Origin: Mya arenaria
Lineage: Eukaryota > Mollusca > Bivalvia > Myida > Myidae
DNA: 64,000 nucleotides
Direction of reading: 5' to 3'
Assembly (NCBI RefSeq): GCF_026914265.1
Contig: NC_069130.1
Coordinates: 16,701,366-16,765,365, forward strand
Shown in pieces: positions 2,111 to 60,615 of this stretch. The notes beneath the pieces were generated by a model. The model worked only from the letters and a program-made list of their open reading frames with translations, had not been told where the DNA came from and ran no database searches. Every line of letters starts with the position of its first letter. The first letter of the stretch is position 1. A program made the translations under genes and the position numbers.

Positions 2111-2416
2111 TATGGAAGCCCTCCAAGGCTTCCATATTATGGAAGCCTTGGAGGGCCACTTTTGAGTTTCGACTTACGGGTACTTTTGACTTTTGACTTT
2201 TGACTTTTGACTTTCGACTTATGACTTTTGACTTTTGACTTAGGCTATGCATTATACACGTGCTCCAGAAGCTGAAGGGAACTACGTTGATTTCAGGTAT
2301 GTAACCCCTATTTTAAACGTTTTCTCTGGCACATACACTGTGAATTAAAATGATTTTAATTATTCTTGCTCAAATACTTAATATCGCATATATTTAATTG
2401 TGGGTTGTGACGGAGG

Positions 2417-2468
<52 letters not shown>

Positions 2469-11790: not shown

Positions 11791-14700
11791 AAGTAGTAGT
11801 AGGAGTAAAGGTTATAGTAGTAGTAGAAGTAGAAGCCGCCGCAGTAGTAGTAGTAGTAGTAGAAGCAGTAGTAGTACAAATAGTAGTAGTTGTAGTATTA
11901 GCGGTAGTAGTAGTACTAATAGTAATAGAAGAAGTATTAGAAGTAGAAGCCGCAGCAGTAGTAGTAGAAGTAGTTGAAGCAGTAGTAGTAAAAGTAGTAT
12001 AAGCAGTAGTAGTATTGGTAGTAGTAGTTCTAGTAGTAGTAGAAGTAGTAGATGTAGTAGCAGTAGCAGAGCGATAGCAGCATCAATAACAGTAGTAGTA
12101 GTATTAGCAGTTGTAGTGAAAAATCCTAAGAAATGGCATATTATATATGTGTTATAATAACTTCTATTATAGATCAATTGTATGCAAAGTTCTACAAAAC
12201 AGAAATTAACAAGATTGCAGTCTGAAGGACAACTATATTCCCCACCGCCATGTATAAAGTTATATGAAATTCCATCCAGTAGTTTTCAAGTTATGCTCCG
12301 GACAAGAAAAAGTAACAAAGGAAAATAACTCAGTAATTAAGCAAATAAGTTATGGTTCTTGTACACTTCACTTCCTCTCATGAGCTCTACCATTGTATGA
12401 AGTTATATCAAATTCCATCCAGTGGTTTTCAAGTTATGAAATATGTTATATATATTTGCACCGCTTACAATCTTCTGTTTAGATAAGGAGATAGTGCATG
12501 TTTCTACCTGACTTTGCCAACGAACGACATTCATTAAAAGTTGCAGTGTTAACAATTGCTCCGCTTTTTCATCAAAAAATGGAGCTAATAAAGTGGTTTC
12601 CAATAAAGAATACCTTGTTATTGTAAGTCGTTCCCCTGCCAGTACCAAGACAAATCTATTTTTAGACATATTTACCATTTTTTCCTTTTCTTTTGGCTCA
12701 CTGACTTTTTTAGTAGCAGGCACCAGAGCTTTCTTCTTCAGCTTTTTACTACGAGTACGAATATTTTCAATTACTGCTTTAATCCGCTCTCCTCTTTCCT
12801 GCAAAGTATGAAGTGTATTAGCTGTACATCTGACATTCAACAAGAATCTGAATTCTGAAAGAAACGACCAGTTACATGTATATATAAATTATTATTTTAT
12901 TACACAACACGCTCCTTTCGGTTTCTTCGGAAATATAAAAAAAAGAGTAAACTATTCGAACTATTAAAGGCATATGCTACAGACCAGCCACGGTTTTCCT
13001 AAAACAACATAGGTAAACGTTGTGCACCGCATCATAATGCTTTAACCTGACGAGGAAGGTAATAACGAGAACGGTTAGTCCGAGGTTTATTTGTCGTAAA
13101 GCTTAAAAAAGAAAGAAATGCACATTTACCAGAAAGCCCGATAACCTATTAAATATATACTATAAGGGCGCATAATCCCCAATGCCCGAAGCTCAATATG
13201 CTGTAATAATCCAATTAAAATGGTGTTTAAGCATATCAAATGACTAAATAAGTCAAGTACATAGAGGTATTTATCTATTGATAGTATCAATAGTTTCATA
13301 GATCTATAAACAGGACTTAAGGAACCAAATTATACTCGGTTCACATGAAAAAGCATAGTACACTAGTAAACCACTGTAATCCACCTAAATAAAAGGGTAC
13401 TAACAACATCTAGGACGAAACAGCAAAATATGAATCGCGAACGAAAGGTCGAGGATACGAATATTGCATTCTGGTTACGAAACTGACGAGGACGAAACTA
13501 TTTCCTTACAAGTAGCAGACTTATAACAAGTACTGAAAATTTAAGTGTAGACTCTTGAAGAAGCATATAAATTTACATCATATTCATATATAAGGGACTA
13601 CAAAACATAGAAATTCTCACATCTATGGCCTTTTGAAAGCGAACAATCGGAAATTTACCTTCACAAAGAGCGAAAGACCTCGGACAAAAGATTAAACCGC
13701 CCCAATACTATTTCGAAACAATGCTAAACTGTTCCCCCTTTAGCTTTATTTCATTCCTCATCAACTTGATTAAGTGTGCATTGTCACACCCTATAGAGGT
13801 CCCATCGAAACGAGTTACACGGGATCTCGATGAACTTCAACGAATAGTGCTGTCTTTAAAAGGGAGCTCTATTCGTTAAAAACATTTGAAAGCCCACATA
13901 CAGCTTATTTGATAGTTGTCACATATGGCTGGGACGTACATAATTTAGCAAGGACGTGTTTATACAGCATTAAGTGTGAAATAATGGCCGGAACCGTTGA
14001 CAGTAGTTCGTGTTATTATCATATATTTTTTGGATCAAAGGGCTTAGGGGACCAAACGCGGCCTTAGGAACCCAGTCCAAAAACAATTGAGTGCGCTATA
14101 ATTAAATCTATCTAGTTCCTTATGTAGAGCTTTCTTTACAGGCGCTTCAGGTGAACATTTTTACCAGTTATTGAGCAGAACCCGATTTCAAAATCAGCTC
14201 ACGATGACCTTTGACTCAGTGACCCATTTTCAATTAGGACCAAGTGTCATTGAAATCAATACATTATTTCCAGTGAATATACGACGATTTCAAAGGTAGG
14301 TCAATGTGACCTTGACCATTGACCTAGCAACGCTATTCTAGCAACTAATATGGTACTGTATGATGGTGGTCACGCTTCATTGAATTATACTCAGTAGTTT
14401 CTTGCGACTTGCGGGTTGCGATACCAATAATTTGTTAAAGAAAGGACTGAAGGACGGACGGACGGACGGATGAACCACGGATGAAATGCGATAGTTTAAA
14501 TTACAAATTTGAAACTGCAAACGGCAACAAACAATGCTGATCTAAGTGGGTTTAAAACCCGATCCAATATTTAGGCTTTTCATTTATAGATATGTCAGAT
14601 TGAGCTTACACATGTAGCAAAGATTCCCTGTTCCTGAAATGAATATGTTACAGAAAGGCCTACATTGTGCACTTTGTGACAGAAGAAAAACACGGGGAGC

Positions 14701-17700
14701 TCTATTCGAGGGAAGCTCTATATGGAGTGACAGTGCATACAAGTCAAAGTATTCAGTGAACTTTGAATTCTGCCCAAATAGCGTTGTGGAAAAGGATCCC
14801 AAGTGTTCCTTTCTAGTACATTAGAAATAAAAACCAAACACCATTTGTGCCGGTGTTTTGCATGAACGGTGCCATGCAAACAAAGTGTTTTCGACTCTTC
14901 TTTCCGAATTAATTGCAAATTAATAACACACTGTTCGCGGACGTGTGTATATATGTTTTGTTTTCAATTATTTCGCAAATAATACAAGAAAAAACTAAGA
15001 CAAATGAACTTACTTCTTCTGAATATTCCTTGTCCGCCATCATGAGATGAGGCATGCATCTCAAACGTAATAAGTCAAAAGTCATAAGTCATAAGTCGAA
15101 AGTCAAAAGTAAAAAGTAAAAAGTACCCGTTAGTCGAAACTCAAAAGTGGCCCTCCAAGGCTTCCATAATTAAAGGTAGGCAGTAATTGTTTATTCGCTG
15201 TGAATAACACAATGTGAATGACATTTTAAATATATGTCAAAGTACATTCTGGTATAAACTACAAACACTCTGTGTGCACATCGAGATTTGAAGAATGTCA
15301 TATACAGTGTGTGTATACCATGTGATAAATTACGTCATATATGCTACGTCGGAAGGCAACATGCTTAAAATGAAGACTTATAACAAATATAACTTGTTTG
15401 ACTACACCATTTTAAATGGAACAAAGGGGAGTCTATGCCGCTTTAAGAGCACCGCCTTCGTTTGATTACCGGAGTTTGACAAAGTGATTAGTTTCATCAA
15501 ACACTTCGACAAACCTGTTTCCAAGAGGATGTTTTGACAGTGCTCCGTCAGATGGCCGTATTGTAAAAAGGTTTGTCAAAGCGTTTTAAGAAACTGAACT
15601 CTCAAATTCTGGTCAAAGACCGAAGGCGGGTCTTTGTAGGCGGCGTAGACTGCGCTATGTTTCATTTAAAATTGTGAAGGAATAGTGAAGTAACCTTTGT
15701 TTAAAGTCTGCATTCGAAGCAAAATGTTGCCTTCCGACGCATTTATGACGCAATTATCACGTGATATGCACACACTGATAAAGGTCTGTGTCGAGCTCGT
15801 CTATTCTTTTAAAGAAAAAACATCTTTGTTATAACTTCTGTCATAGCCTAGTACGTGTCTTTGTGCATTGGTCGTAACTTTAAAAATGTTCAAGACACTT
15901 AAAAGTAACTTATTTAAATGTTGCCATGTCTGCGGTGTTGCTTCTTTTATATCCAGCCTATTTTGTAAGCCGTTGAAGGAAGTTTACGACTGGAGCTTGT
16001 GGGTTTATGATAAAAGAAAGAAAAACATTTTTGTCTAAAACCCTTCTATCTTGACCACTCAGAACTCCTCGGCCATTTTTAGCTCACCAGAGCACGAAGT
16101 GCTCAAGGTGAGCTAATGTGATCGGTCTTTGTCCGGCATCCGTCCGTCCGTTCGTCAGTCAGTCCGTCTGTCAACAATTGCTTGAAAAACTTCTCCTCTG
16201 AAACTACCAGTCCGAATTCAACTTAAGTTTACAGGAATCTTCCTTGGGTGACCATCTACAAAAATACAACAAGGGGTCATGATTGATCAATAACAGCAAC
16301 AACAACAAAATGGCCAAAAAGTAAAAATCTGATAGTTACTAGTATGTAAAGTTTACTCTTGAAGCAAGTGCAGCAAGTCTTGCTATATGGTTTCCCTTTT
16401 TGTTGGAGATTCCACTACTTTCTGTTTTTAGTAACAAGGGAATAGATTTTAAATTTTATGAAGTCTTCAACATAGTCACTTCTAAGGTTATTATTGTTCT
16501 TTTTTTAGGGTCATATACTAAATATTTATTATACACTTTATTCTTTAGAAAAAAAATCATTTTTACTTCATGATAAATTTAATAATCAGACTTTTCCATT
16601 GAACTTCATGTAGATGATTGTAAACTTCATGAAAAATTTTCTAAGCTACAATCTTATCTTCTGTGTGGATAGTGAATAAGCCTTAATGTATTTAAAGAAA
16701 AAAAATATTTTGAACATGTGAAGGAAGGTGATGTTGACATAGATGGAAGAAGCAATGATATTAGTGGAAGGTGTTGAATGTGTTCTGATATTAGATTTTA
16801 GAGCTTAAAGGAGTTTATTGTTTTTATTGGATGGTGCACTGTTTGTTGTTTGTATATCTATACTAAAGGTTCTTTCATTGGGCAAGCAATTTAACATAGT
16901 TTTGTCAGTGTGCAGGCAATTGAACGAAGTTCTGTATATGTGCAGGCTATTGAGCAAAGTCTTGTCAGTGTGCAGGCAACTGAAAAAAGTCCTGTCAGTG
17001 TGCAGGTATCTTCACCAAGTGCTGTCAGTGTGCAGTCAATTATCAAATCCTGTCAGTGTGCAGGCAACTGAACAAAGTCCTGTCAGTGTGCAGGTATGAG
17101 AATCAAATTCTGTCAGTGTGCAGTCAATCATCAAGTCCTGTCAGTGTGTAGGCAATCATCAAGTCCTGTCGGTGTGCAGGAAACTGTGACAAGTCCTGTC
17201 AGTGATTATCCAGGCAACACGTTTGTCCAGTATGTTTTTCAATATTCTTTGAGAACAAATATCAAGCTATATTGATTACAAAGGTTAAACTCTTTTACTC
17301 AGGTGAACGATTTAGAGCCATCATGGCCCTCTTGTTATCGAAAACATCCTCGGATGTATGCTGGTACATCAGTAGAAGTAGTTCGTATTTTTTTAATCAT
17401 ATCATTAATTAAATGTAGTGTTTTAGCTTGTATTTATTGATCTAAGTTTTAATGATTGCCATTGAAGTGTATTATTACAAACATAATAAAGATTCCCAAG
17501 AGTTAAGTCATTAAGTTTAACTGCTAAATTAAATTACTTCGCGATCTACTTGCAGCGGACTTAAACATACCGATTTCTGAGTATGTAAACCGTCCATGTA
17601 CATCCGAGGTTGTTTTCGATATAAATGGCCGAGGAGCTCCGAATGTATCTCGACATACAGATACTGGTGGGGAGAGAACCCCCCAGATCTAACACTTGAG

Positions 17701-18798
17701 GCTGGCATATGTTTGTTTCATCTTCTATTGCCAGCAAACAACTAAATTTTATAACAATAATGAAATAAAAACATTGGAAAAGCATATAGCGCATTGAATG
17801 TGTAATGTCCAGAATGTTTATCGCAAAGTCCGAAAGAGGGGCTGAAAAACAGATATGACAGAAGCTTGAAGCTGGTCTGTATCTTTTTCACTAACAAATA
17901 AACATGAAGTAAATACTGAAGAAACTGAAATGAGTATAATTATTAACATATTTTGTGGTCTATTTGGTGTCCATAAATGGGCAGAGAAAGAGAAACAGAT
18001 TGGTTGATTGAGGCTTGCCCATACTTCTTCTTTAACAATAGTTCTGAAAGTTGATATTTTCACTCCTTATTTTGCAGTGAAAATATCAATTGTTGTTATT
18101 TCACTGTTAAAACCCCATATTTCATCGTAAAGCATGAGAGAAAATGTAATATCTCTGCACAAACAAGTTCACCTTATCTTAAAATCGACATATACATTTG
18201 CTACACAAGTAATTCAGCTTATTAATAACATAATATAACTAAGGGCTGACATTCTCCGAATGAAGAGCAATCTCAATTATTTACATGCATCTTCTTTTAT
18301 AGGTGAGAAGGGCAAAGAGAAACTAGAGCCGAAGTATATTAGCGTTCGTAACGACCTGCTACAGACTTACATCGACCACAAGCCGGTGTTCGAACTCCAG
18401 GCACTTTTTGCTCTGCAGGCGCTTGTGACCAGGCTTGGACACCCACAGGGTATGTTTATGGTCTTATATGAAACTGCATTCCTCTGAATGTTTCATTTTT
18501 CTTGTAACCACAATTCGTTGGACAAGAGTGTACCGTCCCAACAAGAGGTATAACTCTGGTGCACTATTATAGTGGAGTGATTCTTTGTGTAACATGTTTC
18601 ATCTACGATATTCAAGCATATTTTTTCATATTATTTCCAGGTCTTCTCCAGGGTTTCTTTGATATTCTATACGACGAGGATATAATCCATGATGATGCAT
18701 TGGTTGAGTGGGAGAAGAGCGGGGACGAGCCGGAGGGGAAGGAGACGGCCCTTAAACAAGTTGTACAGTTCTTTAAATGGCTGAGAGAGGCCGAGTAG
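1904..18798 (+). CDS. EIF4G: eIF4G1/3-like translation initiation factor, C-terminal exons (5' part outside window; split by a transposon)
   Basis: eIF4G is the scaffold of the cytoplasmic cap-binding complex eIF4F; its C-terminal W2/MIF4G-type HEAT domain binds MNK kinases in vertebrates. Three exons read continuously: 1904-2110 (with the last bases re-supplied at 15169-15175), 18303-18449 and 18641-18798, ending in TAG. Phases agree (AAA G|GT GAG and CAG G|GT CTT). Diagnostic stretches are [38 protein letters not shown] and the terminal FFKWLREAE. The rest of the gene lies to the left of the window; I see no further exon in 1-1903. The first exon is broken by a 13-kb transposon, so this copy can give the full C-terminus only if the element is absent or removed. 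eIF4G1 versus eIF4G3 cannot be decided here. Confidence 0.9.
2105..2110 (+). repeat. Left target-site duplication ATTAAA
   Basis: Identical to 15169-15174; both copies abut the element ends. A 6-bp duplication is the staggered-cut length expected for this insertion. Confidence 0.85.
2111..2240 (+). repeat. Left terminal inverted repeat, with an extra palindromic 27 bp at the tip
   Basis: From 2138 it matches the inverted right end. Bases 2111-2136 form a separate palindrome (10-bp arms TATGGAAGCC/GGCTTCCATA with a 6-bp spacer) followed by one T. From 2183 the TIR becomes tandem heptamers of the ACTTTTG type. Confidence 0.85.
2247..4132 (+). CDS. DDE integrase-type transposase (spliced model)
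   Basis: The long reading frame 2879-4132 encodes 417 residues. It has an N-terminal helix-turn-helix region (about 40-82, ending in KRLNLKRRN), an IS3-like linker (GYRTMWRRL at 108-116) and an integrase core with candidate catalytic residues D166 (WHIDGYD), D225 (RSDGGTEN) and E266 (NQRIERWWG). It presumably cuts and joins the element's own ends in the nucleus. Read from the ATG at 2879 the protein starts with an odd signal-peptide-like stretch. A better start may be a first exon 2247-2296 (ATG, donor CAG|GTATGT) joined in phase to an acceptor at 2955 (GCCAAG|GTACC), giving ...[15 protein letters not shown]. An alternative acceptor at 2855 (TTTTTCAG) is stronger but leaves the integrase frame. 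No stop or frameshift interrupts the core, so the gene may be functional. AATAAA is present at 4315-4320. Confidence 0.82.
2420..2466. repeat. (TG)n microsatellite
   Basis: Pure TG dinucleotides, in the presumed first intron of the transposase gene. Confidence 0.97.
4315..4320 (+). promoter_or_regulatory. Candidate poly(A) signal of the transposase gene
   Basis: AATAAA 183 bp after the transposase stop codon; position plausible, use not shown. Confidence 0.4.
4388..4918. mobile_element. piggyBac-type MITE nested in the large element
   Basis: The ends CCCTTTACTCCATAT and ATATGGAGTAAAGGG are inverted and directly flanked by TTAA (4384-4387 and 4919-4922), the hallmark target of piggyBac elements. 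It is 531 bp and has no coding capacity. Inner motifs TTTGCAAATA / TTTGCAAATG echo each other. Confidence 0.75.
4923..8458. other. Non-coding middle of the large element with degenerate repeats
   Basis: No convincing gene. It holds the hairpin at 5366-5472, GAGTTGTGAGTTATGA tandem sequence at 5735-5790, a C-run/GACCGACC segment (6195-6350) and three to four diverged copies of a roughly 150-bp unit (6370-7200). The 150-bp unit is recognised by TTTGCTAGGGAGGTTCG and GTCAAAGGTCAAGGTCATC. The region lies between the two convergent genes and probably includes their 3' UTRs. Confidence 0.6.
5366..5472. repeat. Near-perfect hairpin, arms about 53 bp
   Basis: The left arm starts ATATCCCCCGCACAGTCC and the right arm ends with its complement. 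The centre is GTATGCAA-C-TTGCATAC. Only a few mismatches occur. The surrounding sequence carries GTTTTCCCGAGGTTA repeated near 5267, 5302 and 5530. Confidence 0.8.
8459..11234 (-). CDS. Third exon: GW-H block, Ig-like domain, repeats and kinase
   Basis: The exon begins after TTTCATTTAG|GATGC. The frame is open from 11234 to 9690; the kinase part is open from about 9757 to 8459. The Ig-like part (about 10300-10500) has [10 protein letters not shown], a W in NYTWYKD and a Y/C pair in TGVYNVKC. The kinase has glycine loop [11 protein letters not shown], lysine in IAVKK, glutamate in VLQEVV, HRD in [16 protein letters not shown] in place of DFG, and APE in YQAPEILL. The HRDIKPEN pattern indicates Ser/Thr specificity; the overall look is TKL/RIPK-like. 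Confidence 0.8.
8459..15043 (-). CDS. Transposon-borne Ig-like/protein-kinase fusion gene, three exons, one frameshift
   Basis: Exons on the minus strand are 15043-15014, 12798-12508 and 11234-8459, all phase 0, for about 1,030 residues if the frameshift near 9702 is discounted. The order is a short acidic start ([10 protein letters not shown]), a basic helical segment, a block with KLHIGWRHY and RRGGGIRK then [11 protein letters not shown], a candidate Ig-like domain, about eleven 20-residue repeats, and a kinase domain. No signal peptide or membrane segment is visible, so an intracellular protein is more likely than a receptor. The start codon lies about 125 bp inside the right TIR, so the promoter is probably in or next to that TIR. 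Its role in transposition or in the host is unknown. It is read toward the transposase gene. Confidence 0.75.
9520..10150 (-). repeat. Coding 60-bp tandem repeat (20-residue units)
   Basis: About eleven diverged units follow the pattern [20 protein letters not shown]. The units continue on both sides of the frameshift in register, which shows that the two frames were once one. Confidence 0.85.
11270..12115. repeat. Impure (AGT)n trinucleotide array
   Basis: About 840 bp of AGT/TAG triplets with AGC, AAG and TTG variants. It lies in the intron between 11235 and 12507 of the Ig/kinase gene. Poly-Ser/Val/Leu reading frames across it are artefacts. Confidence 0.95.
12508..12798 (-). CDS. Second exon of the Ig/kinase gene, basic N-terminal segment
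   Basis: The acceptor is CATACTTTGCAG|GAAAG and the donor CAAAGTCAG|GTAGAAA. It holds 97 codons, phase 0 on both sides. The first half is lysine/arginine-rich and helical ([17 protein letters not shown]). The second half, [20 protein letters not shown] to NVVRWQSQ, looks like a folded domain I do not recognise. Confidence 0.65.
12799..15013 (-). other. First intron of the Ig/kinase gene
   Basis: No coding potential seen. Around 14190-14480 is a SINE-like segment with GACCTTTGAC / GACCTTGACC motifs ending in a GGAC(G) tetramer run. Confidence 0.5.
15014..15043 (-). CDS. First exon of the Ig/kinase gene
   Basis: ATG ATG GCG GAC ... GAA GAA followed by a strong donor GTAAGT. Thirty bases, phase 0. 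It joins in frame to GAA AGA GGA at 12798. The exon sits just inside the right TIR. Confidence 0.65.
15068..15168 (-). repeat. Right terminal inverted repeat
   Basis: The reverse complement begins TATGGAAGCCTTGGAGGG and continues into a heptamer array with ACTTTTT/ACTTTTG variants. It differs from the left TIR by a few substitutions. Unlike the left end it has a single terminal copy. Confidence 0.88.
15169..15174 (+). repeat. Right target-site duplication ATTAAA
   Basis: Second copy of the 6-bp duplication, directly before the original exon end and splice donor. Confidence 0.85.
15169..15175 (+). CDS. EIF4G: Stranded 3' end of the split eIF4G exon with its splice donor
   Basis: ATTAAAG followed by GTAGGC. 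ATTAAA duplicates 2105-2110 (target-site duplication). The extra G gives the phase that joins correctly to GT GAG at 18303, which supports this being the original exon end. Confidence 0.85.
15304..15780. mobile_element. Palindromic MITE family A, copy 1
   Basis: About 475 bp that fold end to end: GTGTGTATACCATGTGATAA at the left and its complement at the right, CTACGTCGGAAGGCAACAT and its inverse inside. Copies are at 27763-28235 and 37739-38103. It lies in the eIF4G intron after the large element. Confidence 0.8.
16080..17336 (+). repeat. Long interspersed repeat bounded by AGCTCACC and GGCCCTCTTG
   Basis: It begins with a small hairpin (AGCTCACCAGAGCAC..GTGAGCTA) and a CCGTCCGTCCG stretch. 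It ends with the same 3' block as 500-592. A minisatellite lies inside. Confidence 0.6.
16885..17215 (+). repeat. Minisatellite, about 30-bp unit
   Basis: About ten diverged units with core CCTGTCAGTGTGCAGGCAA. The short reading frame across it is not a gene. Confidence 0.85.
17338..17580 (+). repeat. Degenerate dispersed repeat G, copy 1
   Basis: Shares AGTAGTTCGTA, GTGTATTATTACA and the end GATCTACTTGCAG with 63715-64000. Both copies are heavily diverged. Confidence 0.45.
18303..18449 (+). CDS. EIF4G: eIF4G penultimate coding exon
   Basis: The exon runs from acceptor TTTTATAG|GTGAG to donor CAGG|GTATG and is 147 bp long, entering and leaving in phase 1. It encodes the block with [20 protein letters not shown], typical of the eIF4G C-terminal HEAT repeats. 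Confidence 0.9.
18641..18798 (+). CDS. EIF4G: eIF4G last coding exon
   Basis: The acceptor is TTATTTCCAG|GTCTTC. The exon encodes 52 codons including the stop and contains LYDEDII and the aromatic/acidic end FFKWLREAE. Acidic residues dominate, as in eIF4G C-termini. A candidate poly(A) signal AATAAA lies near 19416. Confidence 0.92.
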
Positions 18799-38300: not shown

Positions 38301-41300
38301 ATGTAACTGTCCAAGTTACTATAGGAAAATGAAAATTCACTGTTCTTTTCATGGTTATATTGTAATGGTCAGGGTGGCATTGGATAGACACTGTTTTTGC
38401 TATATGATCTAGAATAAGCCACAAACCTTGAAGAGGTGATTCCTGGCCAGTGGTTTACTGGTAACAGCTACGCCTTGGTTATAGCTGGCAGTGCGTGTAA
38501 TGGTCAAGTTGCCATTGGACAAGCGAATATTCTTGCCATGGTTACAGTGGAACTCGGACACACAGCTGCTGGCAGTATCTCGATCCTGGTCTCTATCTAT
38601 ATGCTGTGAGAAAGTTTGATGGGGATTTGTGAGTAAGAATTACAAATGTACCTTACTGAAAATGTGAAATCAAATTTGATTATGTTTCAGGTATGTGGCA
38701 CAGGATGAGAAAAAAAGTTGTGTTTAGCAAATTTTGGTATCCAACTTGTACTCCATGCTTGCAAGTCAGGTGCTAAAAGGCCTAGTTTAAGGACTGTTTG
38801 GCACGACAAACCCCTGCTGTGCATCTCCTGCTAATTTCACTGATGTCACAGTAGGGGCCAATTTCCTGTGTATTTGCTTATTGGCTCAGGGCCATTTAGG
38901 GTCCATTTCTATTATAAAACCTCCAAAACTGCACAGATGGATACTCAGATCAGAGATCTGATAAGACAATTAGGCAATTAGATTAAGATCAATGCACAGA
39001 GGTTGTTTACTATACAGGGTTTTTTGTTTTGTTTTTTGGGGGGAGGGGGGCACTAATACAAGGATTAAACTAGGCCTTTAACTAAATAAGCTATCAGGCT
39101 CAAATAACTCACCAACTTTTATAACATTTGCACGCTACATCCATATCATTCACCATCTCAGTCTTGAGATTTGTCTCCAAATTTTTCGTTTGAACTAACT
39201 ATAGCCATGGTTGGCCTCTCAAATCAACAGTTTTAGTCCTACTCATGCACTAGGCGTTGTTTTTCATTCACAACCTTATTGATTCACAAAAACGCCAATA
39301 ATAAACATATATGAGAATGATGATTTTATCTTTTAAAAGAGTTTCCTTAATTTGACTAGCACAATGCCATGAACACAGGCTTTGCAAATATATATGATTA
39401 CTTTTTCTTCAATAAACATCAGACCTGGTTTAAGTAACAAGTTTACAAGCTCTTCAAAATTTCTTACTCACCCTAACAATTTGATGGCCAGTCTCGGAGT
39501 CTACAGACGGTGTTGTTGTGGAACTATCTGTTACCATGGTTACACTGCTCACCACGGAAACCGACTCTACCATTCCGTATAAATCTATCACAGCAAATAC
39601 ATTCTGAAACATGATTTTTTTTCAAATAAATACAGTTTTCACTTAATTGATGTGTGTATACCATTTTATATGATACCTATCAAGATGTCCCAATAAATTG
39701 TTATAAAAATAAATCTCATAAAAACACTTCCCATTATGTAATATGATTTTACTGCAAGCAATAATAGATTTTTGAAAATCAAATTCATGTATTGCCCACT
39801 TTTGGAGCAAGCAATACATATCTGCACGGACCTCTAAACCAGTTTGGGCGGAATTTCCTGGTATTTGCCGAGTGCGCGCTAAGGATTGTGGGTAAATTCA
39901 AAATTCTTATCGTTTCACCGATATCAAGCAGTTTTCAATCCATGGTTTATAGGTCCATGATATATGGGTCAATTTCTGAATGCTATTACTGTATTCAGTT
40001 ATTTATTTAAAGGTGTTTCAGCGATCTAAAAGAGAACAAGACTTGCACTGAGGAAATGCTATAATGACCACTTGCTCAAATTATGGATATTGGACAGCAG
40101 GGCTTGATTAAGAACTTTATGCCAAGGGCTTATGTAAAAAGGCTTGTTCATCCAAGTGTATTTTCGGTGACTTGTATTGAGAATTTAAAAGTACATGATC
40201 AATGTTTTATTCTGATGGTACTCACTCTTGGAATACTTGAAGCGGCAATGCCGAGGTTTTCACCATTCAGGTAAACATGCATGGCTCCGTCTTGGCTACG
40301 GCGAATTCCTATTTTATTCCCCACCTGCGTTAAAGAATCAATTTAGTTGTATTACGGTATTTTAAAGCTGCACTCCCACAGATTGTCAGTTTTTAAAATT
40401 GTTGTCTCAATCAGCTGATTTTGGCATCTATACTTTCATTTCAGTCATTTTTAGATAACTCACAAAAGAACATATCTCTGTTGTTTGGTAAACAGCCAAA
40501 ATTTCATTTTCTAAAATCTTTACTAAGGCTTTTAGCCAATCAACATTAATTTTCAATTGTAAATATGATACACTTCCATCTTATCTTTTGTCAGCAGTCT
40601 TTTATCGCTAGTTTCCAGATATTTACGCAAAAATTGGCTCATTCAAAGACAAAAAATTAATATGTAATATCTTAATGAAGGCCAATTGTTTAATTAAGTG
40701 CTGAATTTGAAAGCAAAACCATCTGCAGACCTATCATTTAAAAAACAACTTTTTTTTATTAAATTAAATTTCTTCAACAAAGCAGCTCAAATAAAAATAC
40801 ATATCAAAAATTAATTTGTATTATTACCTCTAATCTTTCTAGTGATGGAGCATAGTTTTCCTTTATGGTCACTCCAGACTTTTTCACATTCTCCCCACAC
40901 ACAATCCAAGTGGGCTTTGCCGTCAATTCCAAAACCGACGTCGGAATAGCCGAAACTGGAGTTGTATCCGAGATGGCCATCGATGTTAGTCCAATCCTAA
41001 TACCGCCTGACCATTGTTTATTGATTTTTTCAACCCGTATTTCAAATATCTCGTCTTTTTTTAGTGGGTCGGAGCTGAATATGAGTCCATTGTTAAAGTT
41101 GTGTGACCGGGTGGCTGTGCAACTGTTGGTTGTGAGGCTTATATTTTTGCCGCAACACATGCTGAATCTGTGGGTGATATTCTGGATTTCTGGAATATAT
41201 ATGACACATGTGATGATTAAATTACAGTAGGTTGGTTGGTTAAACATAATAAGGGTTTAAATTTGCTATACAAATCCCTGGTTCTACGAAAAAAAAAGGT

Positions 41301-44300
41301 TTACCAATAATCAATTCATGTGTTCGGAAATTTCAAACCAAAAATGGCCATAATGAAGAAACACAATAATTGATTAACTACCTCATAAACAATGCATTTA
41401 TGGAAAATATCAATTACTGATAACAAGATTGTAACTGTGTATTTAATAGCTGAAAACGCACAAATATTAAATGACTGGTGGGTCCTAAAAGATTAACAGT
41501 GATCAATTTTCAATCAAAAGGTACTGTTTTCAGCACCTTTCCTTTAAACATAGTATCCTTCATAAAAAACATTGTTTTCCATGTTTTTCAGTAAATTAAA
41601 ACAATTGTATTACTTGTGGTACATCATATTTGGCAGTAAGACAGCATCTTTTAAGTGTTTTCACTTTTTATTGATCTGGGCCAATTTTGGTTTCCAACAG
41701 GCATACAAAACAACTTGCTAATGTTAGCTAACTCGAGTTAATTGCCTGCTTTCAGGGTTCGCCTGCTTTCAGGGTATGTGCTGCAATGCAACTGGCATAC
41801 AAAACAGTTTGCTAAAGTTAGCTAAGGTGAGTTGTTTCCCACTTCCAGTGTATGTGCCGGGATGCAACAGGGTATCAAACAAAAATTGTTTGCTTATTAA
41901 TTTTAGCTAACTTTGCTTAGTGACTGTTAGCTTTTAAGTGTCCTCAGAACAAGTTCTTACTCACATTTTATTTACAATAAACTTATAATCAATACATTAC
42001 GGGAACAAACTTAGCCCACTGCTATATTTTTACAAACTATTTGCACAAACTTTCACACATTGTGTGTATATATGACAAATCACTGCCAATCCATTCTGAA
42101 AATTAAATTTTATAAATCTTTAATACTGCATCTTTTATTGACAAGTGCCTAATGACTGGCTTACCTGAAGCAAGAGGGGAACTTAAGCTGCTCTGTTCCA
42201 CTATGGCCCTATTTATAAGGTTGTTTTCATTGGGCATCACACCCGACCCGCTGGTTATGGACACCTGGGCACACTGGCCATACAGGTCTATCACTGCAAA
42301 CACTCCTGAAATAAAAGGGTTATTGTTATCAATGCTATTATTGATATTTGTTATTCAATATATAGCTAAAATTCTATGACTCCACAAGCAAATGCAACTT
42401 GTTTTTACCGAGAATGATATCGAATAAAATCATGTCAATCTCAAAACCTAGTATTTCTTTGTATTAAAACCTTTTATACCAAACCCATCTCATAAAATAC
42501 CAGTTTGGCAAATTAATGAAACCATGTTAAGTATTCTTAAGCCTACCTACATAGTTTATGACCCCATTAAACAAGTGAGTGATTAGGTTAACTGGGGTAC
42601 TATATTGTCACCTTGGTGCAAGAAGTCAATACGTGCCATTGAAATGCACTACACTTATTGCCTTCTTGCACCTAGGTGACAATCAATATACATTCGATTT
42701 ACCTAATTAATAGTTTATGCCATTAAAATGTTAATACCTTGTGGAATATTGGAGCAAGCTACGCCCTGGTCCACTCCATTCAGGAAGTAGTGAAGAGTTC
42801 CGTCAGAACAACGCATCATGCCAATACGACACCCAACAACAACCGAGTCTAGGTCTAGTGGATAGCCGTTACGTATGGTTGACCCATCTTGCATGATCGC
42901 TGAACCACTGAAAGTAATGAAAATGGTACATATCAATTGTAAAACGGATACATAGGTTCATTAGCTGATACGACTCCCATTAGCAACTGAGTCTAAGTCT
43001 GGCAGGTAGATGTTACATATCGTTGACCCATCTTGCATGATCGCTGAACCACTGGCATGAATGAAAATGGTGCTAATTAATTTAAATGTAGAATTGATAT
43101 ATTTGGTTCATCATGTCAATATGACACACAACAACTGAATCATAAGTTGCCATGATGAATCGTTGACCCATCCTGAATGATTGCTGAACCACTGTAGGGG
43201 TAATATGTTTAAGGTACACTTAGCACTAATCTTAACATTATATATATAGAGCTATCAATAAAATAATAACCCAATGCTCTTGTCATAATCAATATCTGTC
43301 ACAAATAACAATGTCATTTATTAACCACATTCAAACATATAAATTCTTACCTCAGCATCCATGTGTCATATTCAATGTCCGTCATGGTGTTGGGGAACTC
43401 CAAGTCCTCTGGCTTTATTAATGTAACTCCTGCTTCTATAGACCCTGACCAGCGGTCGACCATACGCTCAATAATCACTTCAAACAGTTCATTATCCTTC
43501 AACTGCCGATTACTCATCACAATTGCATCATTAAACTCGCCAGTCGCGTTGGGACGTATGGATGTTCGTCCACTGTTTGTGATTGCAGAGTTTGTGCCGT
43601 GAAAGTTGTGAAACAGTAAGAGGTCTGTTTCACTGAGGCTTGAGAAATCTACGTCCGGGGTGCTCAGATTGTCTGTGAACAATAAGAACAAATTACAGTA
43701 AAACTGCGGTTGTTCGAACAAGCGGTCGTTCGAGAACCGGCGTTTCCTCGAGGTCAGAGCTTGGTCCTGAACTTTTTTCCTTCTATTTTTATATAAAATA
43801 TACCTATGCTGCATCGAAACCTAATTATGTTGAGGAGTCGAGCAATATACTCAGACCCAAGTACACAAATCGTGCACAAAACCTCATGGCTCCCTCGAGG
43901 TAATAATTTCACAAAATAAACAAAAACAATTACTAGGTATTAAAATTTTTGCAAGTTGTAAAAATTGCAATGACAGTTGAAAGGCAATTTGATAAGGTGT
44001 GAAAAACCGTTTATCACTGTTAACGCATGACCAATATTAGTTGATATTGGCATTTGAGATGATAATTATGAGAAGATAATGACGAGAAGTTAATTGTGAG
44101 AAATCTAAATGAGTAAAAAAAATATGAATAAAACACTGTTCTTTGAATTCACTGACGATGCTGACCGTGATCTTCAGAAGCTCTGTACGCTGTCACGTCA
44201 CATTACGATTGAACAGTTTCGCGAAACCGACAAAATGCGCCAATCAACAATCCTTGATTTTGCGAAACTTAAATCTGACTAATGCCATAAGATGTATTGT

Positions 44301-47300
44301 CATTTAAATGTTGCTTGTTACGAAAATGTGTTTTTTTGTTAAAATAAACATTTCTACTTATTAATTTATTGTTATTTTTTTTGCATTTTACATTTAGTAT
44401 ATACTTCCACAACGCAACACATAATCGGTGTCTTAGTAAACATTGTTCTTTCACCATTTTGGGCATGGGGCTAGGGCTGTTCAGATCAGGTTAAAGCTGC
44501 AATCTCACAGATTGACCGTTTTGACAATTTTTTTATTTTTTGTAATGGAATGAACCAATCCAACAAAAAAATAAAGAACTTTGTTAAAATGGTCCATCTG
44601 TGAGAGTGCAGCTTAGAGTGTCATTTTGACTTTACCTGGAAATTTCAACTGAGAAATGAACAAAAATTGGTAGAAAAGATAAAGGAATGTGATAAAGTTT
44701 GCTTCTTTAAGAACACATGACTTTGTATAAAAAATCTATAAAAAAACAGTTGGGTGTCAATTTTTTTTATTAAAAAGAAAAAGATCTTTGAATTCTTTTA
44801 AGTATAAAATTGAGAATTGTATTTTAGCAATTGGGTATCGGGACCAAATTTGGCCACATCTTTACCAAACCCCCCCTCTGGTTAATAAATGACCATGTAT
44901 GTTATGTGTTACTATTTCATTCAGACAAAAGGCATCATACACCTGGCTACACTTCTATAGCTAGTTGTCTTCTATTTCTTTTTAATAAAGCACATATTAA
45001 TATAAATATACCATCTGCATATTTCAGTTATGACCTTGTTATTTTGAGCATTTAATTATGACAGGTAACACACAAAATCAGTCAAGGTCAGACAATTAGT
45101 GGCAAAAGAGTAACAAAATTGAGTTTCTCTGTGCATGGCATTATTAATATCAAGCTTTAGAAAGTTGCTCAACTGTTTCTAATTAGTGGAAAAAGAGTAA
45201 CATTACTAGGTTTGCTTTGTGGTAAATTACACCAAAGCTATGACCATACCTCTCCTTTTTACATCTAAAAACAGCTAAAAATGCTACCTGACTGGTCCAC
45301 TATTGTAGCCTGTGCAGCCTGTCCGTACAGGTCAATAACTCCATACACATTCTCTGGCACGTTACTGGCTGCCGCCCCCATGTCTATTCCATTCACAAAG
45401 AAGTGGACTGTGCCTGTGTCTTTACGGATTACACCCACTCTGTCACCGACCTGTAATATACATGAAAGAACTGTTGTGTAATAAAGTTAATAATCAGATT
45501 TATTATATATCCCATTGAAAAAGTTTCAACATTTGTTAATTCTTGCAAAAGTGCACAGTAGGTTTTAAAGGAAGACTTTCATTCCACGCAAGAATGATAT
45601 TTCCTATTAATTCTTTTTTTTTTAAATATTCTGTTAGTTTTAGAATAAACTCAATGGGAATGAATAATGATAAATGAGTATTTTTCCTGTCCTGTACATT
45701 TAAATATATCGACCATATTGAATGTACAGACATGAATCAGACAAGAAGTTCAAACAAAACTACTTTAAAATTAACAGAAACAAAAAACAAATCGAAGTAG
45801 TGATGAGAAATTAGGACCCATTTACAAACCCCCAAAATAACCTTTTCACAAAAATTGGCAACAAAGTATTTTTTGGAATCTCTAACAACTAGTACAGAAA
45901 TGTTTAAATGAAATCTTAGGCTCTTAAAATGTTTCAGACCCATAACACAGTGACTCGCACCAAGGCACTGGGTAAATTCACCACCTAAGCCATTTTGTGA
46001 ACATTTTTACAATTTTAATCACGAAAAAGGTGGGGTAAAAGCTGCAATGTTAAACAAAAAAAATTGAGATCTGCATTAGCAATACTAGTACAAAATCAAA
46101 TATCATCAACCAGTCGTTGAAACTAAGATAAGCCCGCAAGCTTTTCAGTTAAATGCTTTCCAGGTGTTCTGAAATTCTGGATTTTATATTGCAGGGCTTG
46201 TTAAGAATGTTGATACAAAGCACTAGTGTCAAAATTTGGGAATGTTCACCCAAAGTCTAAATTCGATAACTGATATACTTTTAAGAGAAATTTGTTGATT
46301 AATTTCAATTTTGTTTAAAAAAAAAGTGTTAACAAGACACAAGTATCTAACATTTTTTTATATATTTTCTCACCTTCAGTCTATCCAAATTCTGGCCATA
46401 GTCATCCAACACAGTCGTTCCGTTGTACATAACCCCATTTCCTGTCATCATCCATGTTCCCGATCGAATATTCGTCATTGTCGAAGGGAATTCCAGGCTC
46501 TCTGGCGTGTGAAGTGTCAGCCCGATTTCAATTGACCCCGCCCACTTGTCCACCATTTTGTCCAGGCGAACTTCGAAATGCTCGTTAGGTCGAATTGTTC
46601 TCGCTGTTAAAACTACACCGTTGTTAAAGTCATCCACAGCACTGCAAGGGAAAGCAATGAAAAGTTTTCGCCATCTAATTACATCTGATGAACAGGATGA
46701 AAATTATAAATTCAAATCTGTTTCAGATGATTAAAAAGACATACTTAAGTTATATGAAATGCAGGAGTTATAAATATGGCTGTTCTTTTCTTGTCAATGT
46801 CAAACAGAAAAAAATATTTAAATTACTTGGTTGGGATTTAAAATCTGTCTCCAATCATAATCAATCATCTATAACAATCAGTCACGCCATTTAAATTAAT
46901 TTTGCGTTATATTATGAAAATAAAATGTTTTTTTTATTTTTAGAGAATATGGCCAAATAGCAATAATCGATTCTGAGATTATGCAAACAATCACTGGCTA
47001 TCTCAATCCAAAACAAAGGTTTGATTACACCTGTTCATCAATTTAAGTAAACACCAGTTATAAAAATAAATTCTTTCAGTCTACCACTACTTTAAACACC
47101 AGTGTTGACTAAGGGATCATAACAATGCATACTTGGGTCTGTGGGCAGTTCTAGAGTTTCCTATGACAGCTGCATGTGTCCCACATCGGGTGTGAAATGT
47201 CAGTCTTTCCACCTCTTCCTCTGTAAACAGGCAACAGAAAACATGAGATCCACTAAATTTAACATAAACCACCAGGATAGCCTAGATGTTGAGCATCTGC

Positions 47301-50300
47301 TTCAGGATTTCGCTCCCCAGAATCATCATAATATAATTAACTTAAAAATGGTTTAGGTTACTCCTATTTCTGGCTCTCAGCATTGTAGATTTTTGCTCAG
47401 CAAGCTAATGTTGCCAAGTTTTTCCACAGCAAAGCTAATACAGTAAAACTGCAATCTTTCCAACACGCAGTCTTATGAAAAACTGGCAATCGGTCTAGGC
47501 TGTGTCTTAGTCCAAACCATTATTCTTTCTATTTTCATAAAAAATATACTGTCGATGGATTGAAACCTAAATAAGTCAAGGACTAGAGTACCACTGCCGG
47601 TCCCAAATACACAACTCATGTGCAAGATCTTGTGATTACCTCGAGGTTATCTTTTCACACATTTTCCCGAAAGCGTGTTTCAAAATAAATATTGTTTGTT
47701 TCCTAAACGCAATGTTAAATAAGTATTCTACAATTCTATCTGTTTGACTGAACTTGTCTAATGTACCTGTTGTGTTTTCCTCGTCATAGAGATCAGGAAA
47801 TTGTCGTAGGAACCTCTGTCTCTCTGGGGCTCGACTGTTCACCACATGGTTGTAGTTGGGGTCTGTACGATCAAGTATCGTCACCTGCAAATGTATGTGT
47901 GATGAGTGTTGATCAATTATAATCGGAAATGTAAACATAGGCTTCTATTGATAGCGATCTTGCTACAGTTTTTTATTAAACAATACCTTTTTTAATTTTT
48001 TTTCATCAATTTAAAACAGACAAGGCAGTCCAAAGGACGGCCATATCCCCGGCCATTGTTTTTTAGTATATTTTGTTTTTCTCGCAACCTGACTGGTACG
48101 TTGAATCTGACCAAAATCGTACACAACCACTGGTCAAGAGTGGGAATATAGGAAATACAAGTTGTTTGATCAGTAACCTAAATATTCTTGGATATTTGAA
48201 CATATTATAAAAGGATATTTGTTAAAGTTTTTCATATTGTGTGTAGTGTCAGATCAATGTCAGGGTTATTTTGGCTAAAAAAAAGAAGGAAAATGAGTCC
48301 TTGATTTATAACATCGATGAAATAGCAAGCCTTAAGTATGTTTGATAAAGTAATATGGTAACCCATCCATGCATAAGTTATAGCCCTGACACGAAGTGTT
48401 ACAGCCAGACAGACAGACGGACGGATGGACAGACAGACTGACAGACGGACGAAGTGCATTCCTATTCTCCCCTCCCCATTCCGTGGAGGGGGATAAAAAA
48501 AATGGTGAGAGGATTTTGTTCACGGGGAATTTTGTCAGTCTCCTTAGAAAAGCATAAAGCAATACTTTTTAGGTGGACTCTAAAAGCCATAAAACATGCA
48601 GTTTTAGCATTTTTTGTTGCATTGGTTCAGCCACTGCAAAGAAAAATATTTAAGAAATGATATATTCTTTAGTGTAGGAACATGTACAAATCAGACTTTA
48701 CTGACCCTGAATGCAAGGTCATAGAGGTCTACCACACCTTATACAGTTTAAACACATGTCAATTGAAGCATCACTATGACAACACAGTTAAAAAAGTAAT
48801 AAAGACTTCTTTTTTCAGCATAGGTAACCATGCTATCCCAAGTTCACTGAATAAGAATGATGTAGAACAATAGTAAATACCAACCTTGACAGCCATGCCA
48901 TAGAGGTCCACCACGCCCCATACCACTTGTGGGCAGGTATTTGAAGCCATGCCTTGGTCGACACCATTAATAAAGTAGTTCAAGCTTCCATTGGTCTTCC
49001 GAATCAGACCGATCCTGTCTCCTTCCTGAATTGAAGAAATTCGCATGATGAGACAGATTTTGAAAAATTCAGTAACAAAGAATATATTATTAAGAAAACT
49101 TGACCGGGACTCAAACCCACAACCTCTCCAATGGAAGTCCATAGCAGTGAAAATATGGCTAGCTCACTCAGTCATTAAGGTTAACATTGTTTCATTGCTA
49201 GGGATTGTGGGCTGGAGTAAGTATGGGGATAGTAAGTACAGTTTTTAATCATGTTCAGATGATGACTGATCTTTGCAGATAAACATGATCCTCTTAGCAG
49301 CAGAGAATATGTAAATATGTCATTTTAATGACCAATATGAGTTGTGACCTTGACCTCAAAATCCATAGGGGTCATCTACTGGTCACCCCTAACCTAAATA
49401 TTAGGTTTGAGGGCCATAGGTCCAGGCATTGTTGAGTTATCCCTTGAACAATATTTCACAATTCAAGGTCACTGTGACCTTGAACTTTGACTCGATGACC
49501 CCTGAAGTCAATAGGGGTCATCTACTGGTCAGGCCCAACCTTCATGTCAAGTTTGCTGACAAAACGTCAAGGAATTGTTGAGTTTCACTCCGTCAAGCTT
49601 TTGTCTATTGATAAATTGACTGCCAACCGTCCGACATGTGCAAAGCAATATACCTCCTCTTCCTTGGGGGGGCATAATTAAACCCCTTGGATAATTATAC
49701 ATACTGCAAGTGCATCTAGGTTATACTGTCCATATTCCCGCCGTGTGCCTTTGCCATTGGTCAATATGCCACATCCACTCATCATGATGGTGCCTGGTAA
49801 TAAGAGGTCAAAATTAAGTACATTAACTTTTGCAATAAGGAATCAGAAAAAAAAAGACATTTGCTTTCGCTATATGGACTACCGGTATCCCTTTTTTACA
49901 GCCAGTTTTCTTTGGGTGCCAACTTTCTTATTTGTGCTTCAGCTTTCAGTTATGTCAAGTTAAGTCTAACATGATTATTTCTGAAATACTAAAAAGATTT
50001 CAAAAATAAAAACGTCACAACGACAATGACAAAACCTCTATTTTTTTTCTTAAAAACAAAACAAAACAGACCAGCCTAAAAACCATTAAAAATAACAAAC
50101 CAGATCTCATATTAGTCATGGTGGCCGGAAAGTCTATAGCACTAGGGTTGTGTGTGGTAATTCCAACCTCAATCGAACCAGACCATTTATCCACAAGTCT
50201 GTCAAGACGTATCTGGAAAAGAATGAATCATATTTCATACATATACAGTCGAAACCCATTGGCTCAATATCGCTTGGCTCCATTTCCTCGTTCGCTTGAA

Positions 50301-53300
50301 CTTATGTAATAGACAGATTTTGTTTTAATCTATGTAAGCATTCCCGCTTGGCTCAATATTAGCGAGGCTCAAAGTAATCTGGCAGGTCTCTGGGACATCA
50401 AGCCAACAGGTTGCAACTGTAGATGCATGTGCCAATTTGATAAGGTATTGTGTATATACAGGGGTGAAGCTAGCAATTCCGACATACCAGTACACACATT
50501 AGCAATTACATCTGTTGGAAAAAAGAAAGAAAATATTGTAAAATGTTGCAAAATTGGAAACAAATTAAGGCACATTGAATCCATAGCTTGTGCGTTACAT
50601 CAAAAATGGGTTATCTAAGTCTCTCACAAAATTGGCCCAAACCAAGAATTTGCAAAACACTGACCTCGTGCCATGTAATCTCTCAATTACCAGTATGTTT
50701 TAACAAGTTCATGCTTTTAAACAATTTCAACAAACTTATCAGCTCCTACCTCATATTTCTTTGTCCCTTAAAATCCTGTTAGACATGACAACTCCATTGT
50801 TAAATGATAGGATATTGTAAAATCTTACAAAATTGGAAACTAATAAGGGGGCAATTAAAATCCATTGCTGATGTGTTTCACAGAAAGTGGTCTAGCTATG
50901 TCCCTCAGAAAATTGGCAAAAAAAAGTGAAAAACAGACAAGAGAAAAATCAACTAGGCGCCAATTAATCACCCTTTTAAAAGCAAATTTTAACAGCTTTA
51001 TGAGTTTGAACAACTTGAACAATTTTTCAAGTGCCTACCTCAAATATTTCTTCATCCCTCAACGGCCTGTTTGTCATAACAACTCCATTATTAAACTCGT
51101 CTAGTGGGCGTCGTCGCTCAGCGGTGCGTCTGCCACTTGTTAACTTAACAAGACTTCCACATCTAAAATGAAAGATGAATAACAGTTACAAAAGCATAGT
51201 ATTTCAAACCCTTTAACATATGCTTACAATTTTAAAATCATTTTGAAATTCAGAAGCTTTTGTAAATTTCATCAGATAACTTTACTGGTCAGTGTTTTTT
51301 TCCAAATTTTTGTGAATGGGGGCTTGAAAATTGTGAAAATAGCGACAAAATAAATACAATTGTGAATTTACCAAAGTATATTTGAAACACAGAAATGAAG
51401 CAAAGCCTCCTTTTAGATCATAGATTTAAATCATTCAAAGAGAGTAAGACATATCTAAATAAGTTTTATAAATATGTTAACTGTTAAAGGAAACAATATA
51501 GTTTTACACTTGAGCATACGAAACATTTTTATTTTACTACATTATTACAGTGCTTAACATATATGAGTTCAATGATAAAACAACAACAAGAGGGCCATGA
51601 TGGCCCTACATGGCTTTACTGAAAAACAGTCTAAACTGTTGGGCAGGGATAAATTTGACACAAGGGTCAGGATTTGAAGATACCTTTACAGAAGTCTACT
51701 ATTAGCAGACATGTAAACACCTTCAAAGACATGTCAGTAGCCTGGCAGTGTATTATTAGTAGTTTTTGACATTGGGCTGAAAATGTAGCCTCTAAATAGT
51801 TTACAAGGCTTTTCAATACTAGGGCCCCGTGACCTAGTTTTGGCTCCAAATGACCCATAATCAAACCTGATGTAGAAATCATCAAAACAACCTAGCCATT
51901 AAATTTCCAGAATATTTGGGCTGATGACCTCTATGTACTGTTAACAAGATTTTTCTATTTTTGGGTCATGTGACCTAGCTTTTCATCCCAGATGACCCAT
52001 ATTCGATCTCGTCCAAGTAATTACTGGAACAAACATCCTGACCAAGTTTCGTGACAATTGAGGCAAAAATGTGACCACTAGAGTGTTAACAAACTAAGTG
52101 TGGATGGACGACGGACATTCATCTATCCTTTAGCTCACCTTCAGCCTACGGATTAGGTGAGCTAAAAAGCAATTGATTTGTGAACAGATAAAAAATTAGG
52201 GATAGTTTGCTGCTGTTTTTAACTAGGGAATAAGAACTAAAAATCCTATGTATAAAGGCTATTTTTTTAAATGTACTCAATTCAGAAAGCTTTTTAGGGG
52301 GAATTTTCGGTCACCAGAAAACCCCACTGCTGGTATTCTTTTACCTTTCATGAAATGTCAGCCTCTCATTTGATTGAACTGCTGGGTCCTCTGTCATATT
52401 GAGAGCGTTTGTGGATCTCGTCAAATCATTCACTATCTGCGAAGACAGCTGGGCCAGAAACTCATTGGCAAGCTGGTGGGCCATCTCACTGGGAGTTGTG
52501 TTTGGAGCTGGAAACAAAAGTACATTTATTTAATTGCTTTGAATAATATTTCTAAGAATGATTTGAGCGTGAGAGTTGTCATATGGTACTTTTGTCTGCT
52601 TCCCATCCAAGTGGTGGTGGGTTCAAACTTACCAGTCTCTCCAAATTAACACCAGCTTGCCCCAATACCACAAAAATACTTAAGTCAAGTTGAATTATAT
52701 TGGCGTAGGACTCAACTTGTTTTACATCATAACAACAAATAATTTTTTAAATCATATATTGTTTTACACTTTTTAAAATCACATTCTTTCATAGAAAAGA
52801 TTAAAAACTTGAGAAAAATTGAGTTGAGATTGAGAATTGACATCAAGTACATGTATACTCGTGGTGGCTGTCTGGACTAGTTGGCGGTTTTATGGTTTTG
52901 GGTTCGAACCCCACTAAAACCAAAATACTTTTTTTATGCTATAACAGTTACTGTATTTTTTGCTGTAATTTCGATATCATAGAGCTAAATTATGATAAAA
53001 TAAGTGTTTTCAGATGCATTACCGGGAAAACAAAACATGAGCAAGTCACTTTAAAACTGAAATAAAAAATCATATTAACTGCTACTTATTATACTTTTAT
53101 AACCATATTGTTATATCAATAATAATAGCTGAAGCAATATTAATTGGTGTTAATATTTCATGAAAATATATCAAAATTTCATTTATTATAATAATATAAT
53201 TTATTTCACATTTTGACATAAAATAACTTTAGGGGTATACAATTTAATATGTGTGGAATGTTCCTTCATACAATAATGTTCAGCTATAATGACAACAGTT

Positions 53301-60364: not shown

Positions 60365-60379
60365 CTTACTTTCAAGTTG

Positions 60380-60615
60380 TAATTGTATGCATGAAAAAGA
60401 TAACGAACGGCTTTTGTAAATGCTTGTTCCAATATTTGTTTATTTTAACCTTTATGCTTTTATTTCCAGGTCACAAGCTCATTGTTATGTTTTTGATATG
60501 CTACATATGTGTGTTTGTTATTCATGTCGGGAAAAAGCTCATTGAGCTAATGTTTCTTGTTAACATATACCCGACTTTAAATAAAAATTATTGTATCTTG
60601 TATCTTGTAAACAAT
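60380..60615 (+). mobile_element. Probable LINE 3' end in the opposite orientation
   Basis: Ends TTTAAATAAAAATTATTGTA with a short TATCTTG repeat, as LINE tails do. It directly adjoins the inverted RT segment. AACAATT follows it and also precedes the RT segment near 58946, a possible target duplication. Confidence 0.5.

Follow-up and report, generated by a model that had tools for sequence, protein, structure and literature searches.

An apparently young IS3EU-type DNA transposon of the clam Mya arenaria that carries a protein kinase gene beside its transposase gene

A single DNA transposon spans positions 2111-15168 of the stretch of Mya arenaria DNA analyzed here, a 64,000-nucleotide piece of contig NC_069130.1 (positions 16,701,366 to 16,765,365; GC content 35%) that we refer to as the window. 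The element carries two genes, for a transposase on the forward strand and for a protein kinase on the reverse strand, which are convergent and each of which begins near a terminal inverted repeat (TIR). The TIRs are approximately 115 bp in length and were recognized as two arms, 2136-2252 and 15054-15170, of 117 nt each and 89% complementary, and the termini of the element read TATGG..CCATA. This arrangement of one element at these positions, with TIRs, an integrase and a facing kinase gene, had been proposed in a first-pass annotation made from the letters of the window alone, and it was confirmed by the TIRs, by a target-site duplication (TSD) and by Pfam matches (Table 1). No extra copy of the transposase, the kinase or the TIR pair was found elsewhere in the 64-kb window.

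Table 1. Features of the Mya arenaria element, in window coordinates
Feature	Position	Strand	Basis
Target-site duplication ATTAAA, left	2105..2110	.	identical to 15169-15174
Extra foldback of the left terminus, 27 bp, outside the left TIR	2111..2137	.	inverted pair 2118-2136 / 2138-2156, 100%
Left TIR, TATGG start, tandem ACTTTTG heptamers	2138..2252	.	inverted-repeat pair
Transposase gene, rva_4/rve DDE, 417 aa, open frame	2879..4132	+	PF24764 match; D166, D225, E266
Hydrophobic, signal-peptide-like N-terminus of the transposase	2879..2950	+	measured on relatives, including P0083, 99.5% identical to the window's
TKL-type protein kinase domain (probable type); first G-loop Gly is Arg in the window copy	8489..9292	-	PF00069
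Kinase exon 3, coding for the module, Ig-like domain, repeat linker and kinase; frame broken once near 9700 in the window copy	8459..11234	-	
Linker-coding 60-bp tandem repeats	9680..10065	-	
Ig-like domain	10302..10541	-	profile match to PDB Ig domains
N-terminal module, GWxH and GGG motifs, ubiquitin-like fold in predicted model	10845..11186	-	
(AGT)n microsatellite, intron 2 of the kinase gene	11274..12066	.	
Kinase exon 2	12676..12798	-	splice-site model; P0058
Kinase exon 1, start codon 11 bp inside the right TIR	15014..15043	-	splice-site model; P0058
Right TIR, CCATA end	15054..15168	.	inverted-repeat pair
Target-site duplication ATTAAA, right	15169..15174	.	identical to the left duplication

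The element is one of a family of near-identical copies in the M. arenaria genome (1.216 Gb, 18 contigs). This genome was searched with the PF00069 profile and 129 of 1271 candidates were scored, which makes the count of kinase places a minimum. At least 133 matches were obtained, of which 16, the window's included, share the same 804-bp match to profile positions 2-256, and one shorter match is similar in appearance. Fourteen whole elements, comprising the window's and 13 others (among them C12, C13a, C14b and C7b), were delimited on ten contigs. Both TIRs and both genes are present in all 14, and the order is common to all of them: left TIR, transposase, middle region, kinase, immunoglobulin (Ig) part, exons 2 and 1, right TIR. 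Thirteen of the copies are 12.7-13.1 kb in length and C14b, which has a deletion in the middle, is 11.0 kb; mean pairwise divergence is 0.51% over the first ten copies, which were aligned. Perfect 6-bp TSDs of seven different sequences flank eight of the 14 copies (GTATTC, GTTTTG at both C2a and C12, GAAAGT, AATCAC, GAATGC, CAAAAC and ATTAAA). The remaining six (C11, with 4 of 6 letters, C7a, C7b, C14b, C16 and C8) have no perfect TSD, and none at all was seen at C14b and C7b. The termini TATGG..CCATA are present at both ends in 12 of the 14, with the window copy counted despite its foldback, while C16 is without 4 bp at both ends and C8 is without its left end. The transposase frame (415 aa) is intact in nine copies, the kinase exon-3 frame (920-924 aa) in eight and both in six. 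Traces of movement within the family include the insertion of C13a inside another member (C13:46275485-46293079, duplication CAAAAC), and at C7:30548394-30570820 the full copy C7a abuts a second copy in the same orientation that is without its left half. Three kinase places lie outside the 14: the truncated half at C7:30564189; C13:46294399, which is the interrupted outer partner of the nested copy and was seen in part; and a short match at C7:3003140. Overall, the 13-kb unit is a young IS3EU-type cut-and-paste transposon with two convergent genes that has apparently been mobile recently.

Since all 14 whole copies carry both genes between the same TIRs, the kinase is supported as a standing part of the Mya family, and its capture by the single copy in the window is ruled out. 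The first-pass annotation had left open whether the kinase is a standing part of the family or captured host cargo; the near-identical kinases annotated on contigs of four different sizes also lend support to the former. As outcomes that would speak against its proposal it had named full-length copies with the same TIRs lacking the kinase and a kinase from a single-copy host gene family. The kinase is in fact multi-copy, and no kinase-less full-length copy was seen, albeit among copies that were themselves found through the kinase. For the same reason, kinases come with transposases in the Mya copies, but it does not follow that transposases always come with a kinase.

The transposase frame (2879-4129, +) matched the rva_4 profile PF24764 (E 5.5e-34), and its matches to PF00665 and HTH_21 fell below the cut-offs. 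In an alignment of 16 transposases including the window's, D166, D225 and E266 are invariant and there is no invariant HHCC set upstream of them. The start codon used here is located ~0.6 kb inside the left TIR, and it is possible that a non-coding first exon lies at 2247-2296. The N-terminus was surveyed in the best 120 of 785 matches to the transposase (P0083-P0202). A simple rule identified a signal-like N-terminus in 74 of 91 position-complete relatives (60 of 77 distinct N-termini) versus 2 of 78 control proteins, and by hydropathy the N-terminus was hydrophobic in 77 of 104 relatives versus 2 of 2080 internal windows. The hydrophobic stretch is often trailed by (V/L)xP.Y (68 of 91). A signal-peptide-like start is odd for a DNA-cutting enzyme. 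No relatives of the transposase were confirmed in IMG/VR with either sequence or alignment queries.

The kinase gene (15043-8459, -) consists of three exons with GT/AG sites and phase-0 joins, and the same exon joins are found in the public Mya protein P0058. Its kinase frame (8462-9757, -) matched PF00069 (3.4e-48) with HRD, D(M)G and APE all present; PF00069 also matched the protein P0056 (1.1e-49), and PF07714 matches the kinase as well. The best PDB matches of the kinase-family alignment were CTR1, TAK1, RAF and IRAK4, and on these sequence similarities the kinase is best classed as TKL-type, although P0056 alone matched CTR1 first and then mostly CDK2, which counts against that assignment. 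There was no alpha-kinase model among the Pfam families at E <= 1, and an alpha-kinase identity was rejected. For the Ig-like domain, a profile of six sequences matched CEACAM (8.6e-7) and MALT1 (7.1e-6) in PDB; no Pfam family was assigned to this region in the window piece, with Ig models appearing only below their cut-offs. The N-terminal module had a best E of 0.089 against PDB by sequence, Foldseek with the module-Ig model returned nothing at E <= 0.001, and the module alignment gave no confirmed relatives in IMG/VR. In six kinase-family proteins there is no 19-residue stretch with a mean hydropathy >1.3, from which we consider the kinase to be probably soluble. A receptor kinase with an outside Ig domain is disfavored by the same hydropathy scan, in which no dedicated signal-peptide or membrane predictor was used.

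In the window copy the kinase gene is broken and the transposase frame is open. A single shift of frame interrupts the repeat linker, and arginine stands in place of the first G-loop glycine. Over most of their length, proteins from the window locus match annotated ones of M. arenaria at 99-100%, and P0057 is probably the locus's own protein model because it omits the interrupted part and shows this arginine too. The initial description of the gene as a spliced Ig-like/kinase fusion that starts just inside the right TIR and has a catalytic HRD was borne out, whereas the frame break and the G-loop arginine are corrections to it, and the N-terminal module had been missed.

The ends, TSD and transposase of the element fit the IS3EU superfamily, as judged by features set by published descriptions. 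IS3EU elements have TA..TA ends, usually a 6-bp TSD and an rve-type DDE transposase without HHCC (PMC10045372), all of which the Mya element shares with the IS3EU and GingerRoot elements described there; unlike the present case, the word kinase is absent from the main text of that paper and a hydrophobic transposase N-terminus is not mentioned in its passages on these elements. The closest parallel is found in rust fungi, where IS3EU ends are TAYGG..CCRTA with a 6-bp TSD and where TET-positive families have transposase and alpha-kinase genes in opposite orientations (PMC12730594). The Mya element has matching ends, the same TSD length and likewise opposed transposase and kinase genes. However, the fungal kinase is an alpha-kinase, with a TET/JBP gene in between in the TET-positive families, whereas that of Mya, an animal, is a PF00069 kinase, apparently TKL-type, with an Ig-like domain and a predicted ubiquitin-like one. 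Styx, an IS3EU-like element of Zymoseptoria (PMC10853768), is similar in having an IS3EU-like transposase, several genes and 36-bp TIRs that were searched with a 6-bp TSD, but its other genes have GATA, CCHC and DUF3577 domains and no kinase is listed among the four. Kolobok lineages (PMC9587614) are also marked by an accessory enzyme beside the transposase; they belong to another superfamily, and the accessory proteins described in the relevant passages are nucleases, a helicase or KolX. Within the open-access literature searched, much of it accessible as excerpts, a kinase in IS3EU is reported only in PMC12730594, and no animal IS3EU element was found to have a putative TKL kinase that combines an Ig-like domain with a predicted ubiquitin-like one. 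In the available text of PMC10294476, on bivalve transposons, neither IS3EU nor kinase occurs. As such, the presence of a kinase in IS3EU is already known, and it is the predicted type and domain composition of the Mya protein, and its animal source, for which we found no precedent in that literature.

Relatives of the kinase were identified beyond Mya. The kinase search yielded 55 matches at E <= 1e-20, which include relatives in Ruditapes, Dreissena, Mercenaria, Actinia and others, the remaining matches being ordinary plant, protist and bacterial kinases. Searching at full length gave 28 matches at E <= 1e-6, the weaker of them mostly general kinases. The module, Ig and kinase domains occur together in eight non-Mya clusters (P0013, P0015, P0017, P0018, P0021, P0022, P0031 and P0059), one of which is named Actinia tenebrosa; P0031 and P0059, two of these eight, themselves contributed to the profiles used in the search. 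A kinase tree of 36 rows contained a clade of 25 rows (support 99/96) whose named members are animals and one protein filed under a Sedimenticola metagenome-assembled genome (MAG). The label module-or-Ig required six changes on this tree, a number that the many fragmentary rows explain at least in part. Across ten aligned sequences including the window's, the second and third G-loop glycines, the ATP lysine, HRD, the asparagine and the metal-binding D-G are invariant, and the catalytic residues are kept between clam and sea anemone. These comparisons place the kinase in a divergent kinase family with members in several animals.

Evidence for linkage of kinase and transposase in another species comes from P0003 (kinase) and P0102 (transposase), which are from contigs of the same size, 6,618, and whose nearest named relative is Ruditapes in both the kinase and the transposase trees. 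The number of such coincidences expected by chance is 0.026 among kinases on contigs >4 kb, a cut that was picked afterwards, and 0.44 over all 55 matches. This pair suggests linkage in another species and is a lead, not proof.

Two further proteins deserve comment. P0002, the bivalve-like kinase filed under the Sedimenticola MAG, was not found in the genome contigs searched and is probably host DNA in a symbiont bin. The best 80 of 572 loci that it matched in prokaryote genome contigs are kinases of 25-36% identity in bacterial records, which were not used, and the window kinase had no match in such contigs. P0066 has the same N-terminal module without a kinase or Ig match; its C-terminus is UBX-like by eye only, with no Pfam family, and this protein hints that the module could be joined to more than one kind of effector.

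The element interrupts an eIF4G exon at its very end, only a few bases ahead of the splice donor. The left flank (1904-2110) encodes a stretch of eIF4G (PDB 1ug3, E 7e-4), the right flank reads ATTAAAG (15169-15175) followed by the splice donor, and an exon downstream (18655-18795) matches the end of eIF4G1 (E 4.8e-12). Because an eIF4G-type gene is hit, the position suggests a recent, perhaps heterozygous, insertion event. The extra 27-bp foldback at the left terminus sits inside the TSD and was not seen at the left terminus of any other copy displayed. Elsewhere in the window, four frames at 40807-56473 (-) match Neuralized (PF07177) and probably belong to a neuralized-type gene, and a reverse transcriptase frame of 495 aa is located at 58955-60439 (-; RVT_1, E 2.1e-37).

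The best explanation for the whole of these results, and in our judgment a likely one, is a young IS3EU transposon with an accessory kinase that aids transposition. The transposase would cut at the TATGG/CCATA ends and insert with a 6-bp stagger, a step derived from knowledge of the superfamily, the ends and TSDs themselves having been observed. The kinase, probably soluble, would act as an accessory protein that its two N-terminal domains bring to partners, and, to make transposition succeed, it would phosphorylate the transposase complex or else a stress, immune or DNA-repair pathway of the host. We give the host pathway about an even chance of being the target, and the transposase complex a distinctly smaller one, in view of the kinase's resemblance to MAP3K-like TKL kinases and its MALT1-like Ig domain. 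That the kinase is used is argued from its presence in every whole copy examined, the open frames in 8 of 14 and the conservation of catalytic residues from clam to sea anemone. Several observations weigh against an accessory role. The kinase frame is broken in 6 of 14 copies, and C7:30564189 is a truncated right half without a transposase. The ratio of non-synonymous to synonymous polymorphism (pN/pS) is 0.95 for the transposase and 1.58 for the kinase (few changes), the changes look neutral in both genes, and recent selection on the kinase was not detected from within-family copies. Outside Mya, linkage to a transposase rests on the single P0003/P0102 protein pair, and given that the copies were collected via the kinase, a population of copies with only the transposase or only the TIRs could have been missed. 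Neutral-looking changes are, however, expected of copies that decay after insertion and are therefore no proof about kinase use.

If the kinase were a passenger, that is, a host gene captured once by the ancestor of the Mya family and then amplified with no role in transposition, then its host-like introns, the neutral look of the within-family changes and the weak linkage outside Mya would be accounted for, and gene capture by DNA transposons has been described, including that of TET/JBP genes by fungal IS3EU (PMC12730594). We regard this as improbable in view of the fact that the nearest kinases found form a divergent family whose members from other sources also have the module and the Ig domain, that the gene fills the whole right half of the element from a start 11 bp inside the TIR, that a long open frame is kept in 8 of 14 copies, and that the same-size contigs of P0003 and P0102 suggest linkage in another species. 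Alternatively, the kinase may be a self-regulator that phosphorylates its own transposase to restrain or time transposition. Phosphorylation regulates transposases in other elements, and both genes occur in all 14 whole copies, converging from the two TIRs; on the other side, the secretory-looking N-terminus of the transposase, if real, would keep it apart from kinases that have no comparable hydrophobic stretch, and we consider self-regulation rather unlikely, if the least so of the alternatives. The smaller repeats of the region and the foldback left end could be taken as signs that the 13-kb unit combines two independent elements or arose as an assembly artifact. There is next to no chance of this given that the 14 whole copies on ten contigs agree in their order, that 13 measure 12.7-13.1 kb and that eight have perfect TSDs, of seven sequences, and two elements side by side are ruled out by the uniform order, size and TSDs of the family copies. 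Returning to an accessory kinase that aids transposition, a more far-reaching form can be put forward, in which animal IS3EU would be a two-protein system whose soluble MAP3K-like kinase, with its Ig and ubiquitin-like domains, reprograms host stress, immune or repair signaling to let the element move, alpha-kinases would have been taken up independently in fungi to serve the same need, and the animal transposase would use its signal-like N-terminus to travel by a secretory or nuclear-membrane route. We think it doubtful that this extended form holds in full.

To our knowledge, most DNA transposons encode only DNA-moving functions. A signaling enzyme in every whole copy examined of a young, apparently recently active family suggests that phosphorylation helps the transposon. 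Mya arenaria is subject to a transmissible cancer, and DNA transposons are over-represented among the repeats amplified in that cancer (PMC10663159). With fungal and clam IS3EU transposases now found to be accompanied by two apparently unrelated types of kinase, it becomes testable whether the kinase is needed for transposition and what its substrate may be.

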